Source of the DNA: Chitinophagaceae bacterium | GTDB lineage: Bacteria > Bacteroidota > Bacteroidia > Chitinophagales > Chitinophagaceae | DNA length: 64,000 bases | Direction of reading: 5' to 3' | NCBI GenBank assembly: GCA_019638595.1 | Contig: JAHBTJ010000027.1 | Coordinates: 29,719 to 93,718, forward strand | In this document: in pieces, positions 16,935-18,384 of the stretch | Position numbering within the stretch: position 1 is the stretch's first letter | Layout of the letters: every line of letters starts with the position of its first letter | Notes under the pieces: generated by a model | What the model was told of the DNA's origin: nothing | The model's input: only the letters and a program-made list of their open reading frames with translations | The model's database searches: none | Translations under genes and position numbers: made by a program

Positions 16935-16966
16935 TTTGGAAGAATCCAAACCCCTGATTACCTTTG
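16935..16966 (+). promoter_or_regulatory. Promoter of the asd leader transcript
   Basis: TTTG (16935-16938) and TACCTTTG (16959-16966) are spaced by 20 bases, a full match to the Bacteroidota promoter. It lies between the GldE-like gene and asd and drives the leader ORF and attenuator. No second promoter of this type is seen between the terminator and the asd ATG. Confidence 0.7.
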
Positions 16967-16974
16967 CCCGCGCA

Positions 16975-17037
16975 ATGATAAAAATGATCAAGCATACAAA
17001 GAGCACAAAGAAACAGTTCCTTACCGGGAAAGGTTAA
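16975..17037 (+). CDS. Leader peptide of asd (20 codons, Lys/Thr/Met/Ile-rich)
   Basis: A short ORF directly downstream of the promoter encodes MIKMIKHTKSTKKQFLTGKG. Six Lys, three Thr, two Met and two Ile make 13 of 20 residues from the aspartate family, whose shared precursor is made by Asd. The ORF is closely followed by a strong terminator and then by asd. Its last codons (ACC GGG AAA GGT, 17023-17034) are complementary to the terminator's 5' arm. The first ATG is only about 9 bases after the -7 box, so the second in-frame ATG (16984, A-rich upstream) may be the real start, giving 17 codons. The attenuator role is inferred. Confidence 0.65.
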   Translation: MIKMIKHTKSTKKQFLTGKG

Positions 17038-17096
17038 AGAGTGTATTGTATGACTGAATATATTCAAGGCCTTTCCGGAAGCGGAAAGGCTTTTTT
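17023..17096 (+). promoter_or_regulatory. Transcription attenuator (antiterminator/terminator) upstream of asd
   Basis: Terminator: GCCTTTCCG (17069-17077), loop GAAG, CGGAAAGGC (17082-17090), then six T and a further T run. Alternative pairing: CCGGGAAAGG (17024-17033, inside the leader ORF) with CCTTTCCGG (17070-17078), nine pairs with one bulged G. A ribosome stalled on the Lys/Thr codons upstream (16990-17013) would leave this segment free to form the antiterminator. A ribosome reaching the stop codon at 17035 would cover it and let the terminator form. Confidence 0.65.
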
Positions 17097-17139
17097 ACTT
17101 TTAAACCATCATCACTAAAACAATAAAAAACCAACCAAA

Positions 17140-18147
17140 ATGAAAGTTGCGGTAGTAGGAGCCACCGGATTAGTAGGCTCTAAAATGTTGCAGGTTCTTG
17201 CAGAAAGAAATTTCCCGGTTACGGAATTGATCCCTGTAGCCTCCGAAAAATCAATCGGAAAAGAAGTGGAATTTAAGGGAAAGAAGTATAAGGTGGTGAG
17301 TGCAGCCGATGCTATTGCAGCAAAGCCTGATGTGGCCATATTTTCCGCCGGCGGAAGCACCTCTCTTGCGCTTGCGCCCCAGTTTGCGGCTGCCGGTATA
17401 ACTGTTATTGATAATTCGTCGGCATGGCGCATGGACCCTACCAAAAAATTAGTGGTGCCTGAAATTAATGCCGATGCCTTAACTAAAGAGGATAAAATAA
17501 TTGCCAATCCTAACTGCTCCACCATACAAATGGTGGTGGCGCTGAATCCGCTGCATAAAAAATATGGAATAAAAAGAGTGGTGGTTAGCACCTACCAGAG
17601 TGTTACCGGTACCGGGGTGAAAGCTGTTGAACAACTTCATGGCGAAAGGAATAGATCGGTAAAAGGAGAGAACGGCGAATATCCTATGGCATACAAATAT
17701 CCTATTGATCTGAATGTAATTCCGCAGATAGATGTATTTGTTGACAACGGTTACACCAAAGAAGAGATGAAGATGGTGAATGAAACCAAAAAGATCATGC
17801 GGGATGATACTATACGCGTAACCGCTACTACGGTTCGTATACCTGTAATGGGCGGACATAGCGAAAGCGTGAACGTGGAATTTGAAAAGGATTTTGACCT
17901 GGCCGAAGTAAAAAGCCTGCTTGAAACGGCGCCGGGCATAATTGTGGCCGACGATCCGGCAAACGCAGTATATCCTATGCCTAAAGACGCGCATGAAAAA
18001 GATGAAGTATTTGTAGGAAGGCTGAGAAGGGACGAAACACAGCCCAATACTTTAAATATGTGGATCGTGAGCGATAACCTCCGTAAAGGCGCGGCTACCA
18101 ACGCGGTGCAGATAGCGGAGTATTTAATGGACAATAAGCTGTTATAA
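17140..18147 (+). CDS. asd: Aspartate-semialdehyde dehydrogenase
   Basis: Asd reduces aspartyl phosphate to aspartate semialdehyde, the branch point for Lys/DAP, Thr, Met and Ile. The 335-residue protein starts MKVAVVGATGLVGSKML (NADP-binding GxxGxxG) and has the active-site Cys in IIANPNCSTIQMVVAL (about residue 127). The catalytic His lies in RVPVMGGHSESVNVEF-like context (RIPVMGGHSE). Full length for the family. It lies 43 bp after the attenuator terminator and is followed by a strong terminator at 18175. Confidence 0.97.
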   Translation: MKVAVVGATGLVGSKMLQVLAERNFPVTELIPVASEKSIGKEVEFKGKKYKVVSAADAIAAKPDVAIFSAGGSTSLALAPQFAAAGITVIDNSSAWRMDPTKKLVVPEINADALTKEDKIIANPNCSTIQMVVALNPLHKKYGIKRVVVSTYQSVTGTGVKAVEQLHGERNRSVKGENGEYPMAYKYPIDLNVIPQIDVFVDNGYTKEEMKMVNETKKIMRDDTIRVTATTVRIPVMGGHSESVNVEFEKDFDLAEVKSLLETAPGIIVADDPANAVYPMPKDAHEKDEVFVGRLRRDETQPNTLNMWIVSDNLRKGAATNAVQIAEYLMDNKLL

Positions 18148-18174
18148 TAATAATGGTAGAAAAATTTATTGAAA

Positions 18175-18208
18175 GCGCAGCCCGGCAATTGCCGGGCTGC
18201 GCTTTTTT
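18175..18208 (+). terminator. Rho-independent terminator of asd
   Basis: GCGCAGCCCGGC (18175-18186), loop AATT, GCCGGGCTGCGC (18191-18202), then six T: a perfect 12-bp stem. Confidence 0.9.
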
Positions 18209-18384
18209 AGCGCCCGGGAGTTCCCCATCTCTTCCCGGCAATTCATTCTATCCGGCAGCACATTATAAGGGCTCTTCATAAGTAATAGTAACCACTCATA
18301 CATCAAACCGGCTGTAGTGCAACGGCATATCACAGGGCACTGTCATCTCTGCGATTGGTTAATTTATTATTTAAAAAGAAAGAA

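Follow-up and report, generated by a model that had tools for sequence, protein, structure and literature searches.

The 64,000-nucleotide stretch of Chitinophagaceae DNA analysed here (the window) carries asd, the gene opening the route to lysine and threonine, which matches the NCBIfam profiles NF011456 (458.6 bits, cut-off 223) and TIGR01296 (441.2 bits, cut-off 324.2). On the same strand, asd is preceded by a compact series of elements with the appearance of a leader-peptide attenuator:

16935..16966, + strand: Bacteroidota-type promoter, TTTG, a 20-nt spacer and TACCTTTG (direct sequence reading)
16975..17037, + strand: leader ORF of 20 codons, MIKMIKHTKSTKKQFLTGKG (direct sequence reading; core kept in relatives)
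16993..17006, + strand (16993-16999 and 17003-17006): arm A (CATACAA and GCAC), within the Lys/Thr codons, partner of arm A' (leader MFE fold, covariation)
17024..17035, + strand: arm B, 5' arm of the antiterminator, covering the final codons and the first stop-codon base (masked fold, B:C mate-swap)
17041..17052, + strand (17041-17044 and 17046-17052): arm A' (GTGT and TTGTATG), complement of arm A (leader MFE fold, covariation)
17066..17077, + strand: arm C, 5' arm of the terminator and 3' arm of the antiterminator (terminator scan, alignment, mate-swap, MFE fold)
17082..17097, + strand: arm D and U-tract, 3' half of the intrinsic terminator (terminator scan, MFE fold, paired changes)
17140..18147, + strand: asd, aspartate-semialdehyde dehydrogenase, the putative regulated gene (NCBIfam profiles)

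The promoter boxes, TTTG at 16935-16938 and TACCTTTG (the -7 box) at 16959-16966, belong to the TTTG / TAnnTTTG type that we take to be the Bacteroidota promoter motif; a sigma-70 promoter scan, whose model does not include this promoter type, returned nothing at 16935-16966. The ATG of the leader ORF stands 8 nt past the -7 box, making the ORF near-leaderless, and 13 of the 20 residues of MIKMIKHTKSTKKQFLTGKG are Lys (6), Thr (3), Met (2) or Ile (2). The terminator at 17066-17093 has 12 pairs and a tetraloop in the terminator scan, with arms at 17066-17077 and 17082-17093 in the MFE fold and a U-tract running to 17097; asd starts 43 nt past the T-run. The original prediction for this locus had described a full promoter, a 20-codon ORF with 13 Lys, Thr, Met or Ile residues, a strong tetraloop terminator and a 43-base distance to asd, all of which hold on re-reading, whereas the terminator stem lies 28 nt past the stop codon, or 30 nt without its outer A-U pairs, rather than the 32 bases given there. 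It had also raised the question of a separate asd promoter downstream of 17,096; by eye, the 17094-17139 gap between terminator and asd holds none of the TAnnTTTG type.

Among 603 short ATG ORFs (12-30 aa, both strands) scanned in the window, the leader ORF and its internal start are alone in combining a Lys plus Thr content of at least 40% with a terminator within 95 nt, and 20 first-order Markov sequences of window length gave no match of a K/T-rich ORF with a terminator. Just past asd, a long GC-rich inverted repeat followed by a T-run (18172-18209) is by eye likely the 3' terminator of asd; it is absent from the terminator scan listing.

Distribution of the leader

We searched 195 genomes of the window's family for asd relatives (187 gave a match, and 30 of the loci were examined) and added the best 80 loci from named genome contigs. 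Of these 110 related loci, 53 show the same layout ahead of asd (pattern plus eye; one duplicate, L072 being the L020 contig), namely all 30 family loci and 23 of the 80 from named contigs. In order, it consists of a promoter, a K/T-rich ORF with a GGGAAGG-like arm at its stop codon, an arm resembling GTTTTGTATG, a terminator of the CCTTCC..GGAAGG type and asd; relatives keep ORF, Lys/Thr codons and terminator together, where the original prediction had named homologues lacking the ORF or its codon bias as the observation that would count against it. Named carriers comprise Niastella yeongjuensis and Limnovirga soli (both Chitinophagaceae) as well as Flavihumibacter, Parafilimonas and Filimonas records, the others being MAGs labelled Chitinophagaceae, Chitinophagales, Bacteroidetes, Bacteroidota, Sphingobacteriales or Sphingobacteriia. 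Among the best short ORFs and hairpins at the asd loci of Pedobacter, Mucilaginibacter, Sphingobacterium, Hymenobacter, Dyadobacter, Spirosoma, Algoriphagus and Flavobacterium, the leader was not found (the flank was too short at L057 and L058). A Lys-rich short ORF at L110 was set aside, sitting by eye in the end of the upstream coding frame.

The leader element travels with asd, since no relative of the 427-aa gene upstream of it in the window occurs in the 0.4-2.5 kb flank of 48 of 49 leader loci. Promoter boxes are likewise kept: across 49 asd leaders, a TAnnTTnG box is found in 45, with TTTG 17-22 nt upstream of the box in 42. In 41 of the 45 leaders having the box, 6-10 nt separate its end from the start codon, which probably places the 5' end of the transcript no more than a few nt from the leader ORF.

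Fifty leaders (leaving out L031, L056 and L072) were aligned as A1, from which a covariance model, R1, was built and run on 396 genomes of the order; it superseded an earlier pattern search that had proved too strict (63/396 genomes). At E<=1e-6, R1 matches 88 of 133 genomes of Chitinophagaceae, at least 13 of which had leaders in the model (at most 34, if all named A1 loci are among them), and 0 of 263 genomes of other families in the order. These 88 genomes carry 93 matches, of which 62 lie in genomes with a known asd position: asd follows 56 of these after 19-181 nt, and dapA follows 6. Among the 31 matches elsewhere, the 11 that were checked are all followed by asd, at 27-215 nt, with 20 outside the check. 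Relaxing the threshold to E<=0.01 raises the count to 214 of 396 genomes, but among 23 weaker matches inspected 2 are asd leaders, with 10 leaders for other amino acids and 11 not leader-like. The best match outside the family, in G272 (1.4e-6), is not leader-like, nor is a second match in G022, and pattern matches outside the family in G223 and G235 do not, by eye, fall in a leader before a terminator. Within the family, 45 of 133 genomes have no R1 match at E<=1e-6, and the element is absent from six asd upstream regions inspected in three genera without a match.

Pairings and switch geometry

Three pairings co-vary in the leader: A:A', between an arm inside the ORF and an arm past its stop codon; B:C, the antiterminator; and C:D, the terminator. 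In the terminator, 10 of 11 predicted pairs have changed on both sides (50 sequences). For A:A' and the terminator together, 85.5% of alignment cells are paired against 78.6% when shuffled, with 0 of 500 shuffles as high (relatedness is outside this control), and 18 of 22 pairs have changes on both sides; sliding the partner along the alignment drops pairing to 34-61%. Within A:A', the outer eight pairs form in 89% and the inner three are weak (57%).

An alignment-free mate-swap test, in which an arm's binding energy with its own partner is compared with that for other species' partners, agrees for each pairing; it was run on 48 of 51 leaders (the near-identical L031, L023 and L015 being left out). 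With relatedness again outside the control, energies are -12.99 own versus -10.07 swapped for A:A' (z -9.1), -11.69 versus -10.68 for B:C (z -7.6) and -14.30 versus -12.73 for C:D (z -10.8), in each case with 0 of 5000 permutations as low. One leader, L047, illustrates joint change directly, its CCTTCC/GGAAGG set being replaced by CCCC/GGGG in B, C and D alike. Antiterminator and terminator are mutually exclusive through arm C, and both B:C and C:D co-vary. The original prediction had the end of the leader pairing with the 5' arm of the terminator in nine pairs to give exclusive structures, a reading that the fold of the window leader bears out: with a ribosome masked on Lys13, 17027-17035 pairs with 17068-17076 in nine pairs (the last two G-U), enclosing a hairpin at 17039-17047/17057-17065, and the MFE fold of the full leader is A:A' plus the terminator.

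We then scored B:C as expected pairs per arm length on transcripts ending before arm D. With a ribosome on the last Lys or Thr codon that leaves B free, the score is 0.5 or higher in 48 of 48 leaders, and with a ribosome at the stop codon in 0 of 48, a contrast that is largely positional because the stall codon was chosen to free B and the stop codon masks it. What it conveys is geometry rather than kinetics: in all 48 leaders, Lys or Thr codons lie at a sufficient distance ahead of B, and the stop codon is near enough for a ribosome there to mask B. Stalling gives a higher B:C score than the ribosome-free state in 34 of 48 leaders. In that free state B:C already scores at least 0.5 in 35 of 48, which means that by thermodynamics it is not clearly 'off', and it is the least certain part of the model. 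A mini-hairpin of A' with the stretch before C is strong in the window (z -2.4), where it forms in the stall model, and weak overall across the 48 (mean z -0.63, 13/48 below -1).

Codon content, dapA and sister leaders

In the 49 non-redundant asd leaders used for codon content (833 residues), Lys accounts for 26.5% and Thr for 14.3%. Lys codons number 3-6 in each of the 49, and Thr codons 1-4 in all except L044, which has none. Met and Ile occur about once each per leader, showing little enrichment though they too are pathway end products, and were rejected as main sensors on these low counts; the Lys/Thr/Met/Ile signal of the original prediction is thereby narrowed to a constant Lys component with Thr second. 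Relatives share a leader core of K-H-T-K-x-T-K-K, over whose eight codons the codon-position entropies are 0.25/0.46/0.86 in 40 of 50 aligned sequences (8 divergent and 2 near-identical ones left out), a pattern as would be expected of amino-acid selection, though arm A shares these codons.

The same element stands before dapA in some genera; neither this nor the co-varying A:A' pair figured in the original prediction. Forty-nine dapA loci were sampled and the upstream region was located in 45 (35 + 10; four not located), of which a minority of five carry the leader (L206, L209, L210, L234, L248). Two further cases, L173 and L177, came from R1 matches, and one of the six dapA proteins downstream of R1 was profile-tested (TIGR00674). 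These leaders, for example MQLIKKHTKQVKKHSMYGEG and MNLIKKYSSKKNISEREDA, hold as much Lys as those of asd (mean 4.4 vs 4.5) and less Thr (mean 1.3 vs 2.4; Mann-Whitney p=0.003, n=7 and 49, three of the 7 from one genus), a contrast that makes codon-to-pathway matching testable. The upstream region of the window genome's own dapA was inspected and has no such leader. In G035, a leader-bearing asd is immediately followed by a second DapA-like gene, 40% identical (L272, G035:C8:53000-55400), an adjacency under which both genes would fall under one Lys/Thr leader.

Leaders of other specificities occur in the window's own genome. The his leader MITNTHHHHHYLPNR (HHHHH) with its terminator lies directly before hisG (TIGR00070; L193, G000:C2:180514-180644, minus strand); it is the second R1 match in this genome, and starts 19 nt past the -7 box versus the usual 6-10. 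Leaders followed by terminators also precede a trpE-like gene (PF04715; L282), with MKNSANQYWWWHTNSYRGL (WWW), pheA (PF00800; L279), with MTISKAYRYFFFYFYFTGRPGLLLLKK (FFFYFYF), and an ilvE-like gene (L205), with MLKSSISNIVSSTVLVVVVIIIPATQGGVICI (VLVVVVIII). When folded, the trp and his leaders show an alternative pairing in the stall model, and that of the pheA leader forms in the stop model too. A Thr/Ile-rich ORF, MVLLYSNTSSAFITANTAVISTIITTTTITTLV, stands 102 nt before the aspartokinase/homoserine dehydrogenase gene (L283, G000:C8:171101-171202, minus strand), the intervening sequence having no hairpin and U-tract that resemble a terminator, and no leader was found before a second homoserine dehydrogenase gene (L281) or an aminotransferase (L276). 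This single genome has at least five unannotated leaders that lie outside Rfam families (four by test).

R1 further picked up his leaders in other genomes (L183, L259, L261 and L265, and L263 by peptide alone). In G469 and G177 (L262, L267), MNKQTTFGFFGFYYFWYQE and MITQTTFGFFGFYYFWYQK with a GGAAGG/CCTTCC switch precede a prephenate dehydratase-like gene (phe leaders); the asd genes of two other genomes of that genus (g7) are without a Lys/Thr leader. Leaders MKYNKAYKYIKYTSLLG and MTRKLHKSKKHLPNR in G125 (L184) and G094 (L268), with Lys and, in one, Tyr codons, stand before an aminotransferase that is nearest to aspartate transaminase models, below their cut-off. G361, which belongs to a different family in the order, has an Ile-rich leader, MKNMIQIIVIISIIILMNG, ahead of a gene that by eye is ilvD-like (L275).

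Proposed mechanism, alternatives and known systems

Taking these observations together, we consider it very likely that the element is a ribosome-mediated (leader-peptide) transcription attenuator that would set asd by charged tRNA(Lys), with tRNA(Thr) contributing. This putative attenuator is well supported by comparative and computational evidence, the unit being conserved before asd and also before dapA in some genera. RNA polymerase would start a few nt upstream of the leader ORF, with a ribosome following. When Lys and Thr are ample, the ribosome would reach the stop codon and cover B, and C:D would end transcription at about 17095. When Lys (or Thr) is scarce, the ribosome would stall on the Lys or Thr codons, masking A and leaving B free, so that B:C may form ahead of the synthesis of D and transcription would continue into asd. 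A:A' would re-form after the ribosome departs, and may serve as a pause or protector hairpin. On a wider scale, it is probable that a Chitinophagaceae-wide, lysine-centred regulon exists in which near-leaderless Lys(/Thr) ORFs and the three-pairing switch govern asd and dapA, with Thr tuned to whether the gene serves Lys only or Lys and Thr, within a genome-wide set of such switches (trp, his, phe, ilv, thr, lys).

The same RNA switch could in principle be thrown by nascent-peptide arrest, the peptide KHTKRTKK stalling the ribosome on a ligand rather than through codon starvation; TnaC is the model of such ligand-induced stalling. The core motif is strongly conserved, including a His and an Arg that are not pathway products, yet arm A accounts for part of that conservation, Lys order and neighbours vary widely (MNFIITNTKKIKKHISNGEGV, MKMICKNKKHNMKRFQQGKGQ, MSFYSKHKKTCKQHFGNTEG) while the Lys count stays at 3-6, and the sister leaders in the window's genome consist simply of W, H, F/Y and V/I codon runs, all of which makes arrest very unlikely in our judgement. 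More plausible, though we lean against it, is a sensor of Lys only, in which Thr codons exist since ACATAC/AAAGCGCAC serve arm A rather than Thr sensing. Lys is present in 49/49 asd leaders, Thr being absent from L044 and reduced in dapA leaders; against this, 48/49 asd leaders keep Thr codons, at about twice the dapA level, and the third base is fully degenerate at one mostly-Thr position (A1 column 33). Furthermore, the Thr/Ile-rich ORF before the aspartokinase/homoserine dehydrogenase gene suggests that Thr codons do serve a sensing purpose in the window genome.

A structured leader ahead of an Asp-family gene might be a ligand-binding riboswitch (for lysine or otherwise) or a T-box governing asd. 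Rfam gave nothing inside 16935-17140 at E<=1, nor at gathering score in nine leader loci (L193, L205, L183, L184, L173, L009, L010, L034 and L003), and the 5' part of the leader has a coding signature; we rejected this reading on the Rfam negatives as highly improbable. The terminator also sits between two same-strand genes, as a plain terminator of the upstream gene next to a chance ORF would. Promoter, ORF and three co-varying pairings are, however, kept before asd whatever the upstream gene, which differs at the leader loci, and the chance scan was empty, so that this explanation was likewise rejected and has next to no probability left.

Lysine synthesis is classically controlled by a lysine riboswitch, T-boxes or enzyme feedback. 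The thr attenuator of E. coli (Rfam Thr_leader) uses Thr and Ile codons to control thrABC, and resembles the asd leader in its end-product-rich leader peptide, its terminator/antiterminator switch and its Asp-family pathway; here it is asd (elsewhere dapA) that would be controlled, by Lys/Thr codons, and the leader is near-leaderless, has the extra A:A' pair enclosing B and is without an Rfam match. NCBIfam leader-peptide models, run on two asd leaders and an X-padded his leader at E<=10 with HMMER filters on, returned 0 families. The original prediction held an Asp-family attenuator in this phylum to be not commonly described: a Lys/Thr leader before asd or dapA was indeed not found in the literature searched, which leaves out most subscription papers, while the Asp-family type as such is known from E. 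coli thr. Vitreschak 2004 is said to mention Bacteroidetes.

Leader-peptide switches are hardly described in Bacteroidota, and the prediction had placed the best-known attenuators outside the phylum; leader-peptide attenuation has, even so, already been hinted at there, as 'strong clues' before amino-acid biosynthesis operons of Flavobacterium psychrophilum (PMC9723704) and as short ORFs 'reminiscent of leader peptides' in Bacteroides thetaiotaomicron (PMC7366714). These share phylum and proposed mechanism with the asd leader, concern other families and, in their passages on this point, name no Lys/Thr- or asd-linked operon and describe no structure. In Bacteroidota, 5' UTRs that are absent or very short are reported to be rare, with about 3.7% of them below 10 nt in B. 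thetaiotaomicron (PMC7366714) and 5.5% leaderless in F. psychrophilum (PMC9723704). Near-leaderless leader ORFs are relevant to how coupled transcription and translation begin in a group that is said to lack Shine-Dalgarno sequences (PMC9723704). Elsewhere, the leaderless trpL attenuator of Sinorhizobium meliloti (PMC7298713) and the leaderless poly-Cys ORFs of mycobacteria (Canestrari 2020, cited in PMC13236596) are alike in placing a short amino-acid-sensing ORF at or near the transcript 5' end, and unlike the asd leader in using Trp or Cys codons and in belonging to other phyla; leader peptides in general are treated in PMC4833913.

Closer to hand, the window genome's own his, trp, phe and ilv leaders share the order of product-codon runs then a terminator, and differ in the amino acid. 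The mechanism class is the known one of classical leader-peptide attenuators, and a leader peptide counting lysyl-tRNA would, if true, be a new specificity for this classical RNA switch across much of a family. As far as can be told, what is new is the Lys-centred specificity, the attachment to asd/dapA, the extra co-varying arm pair and the spread through one family.
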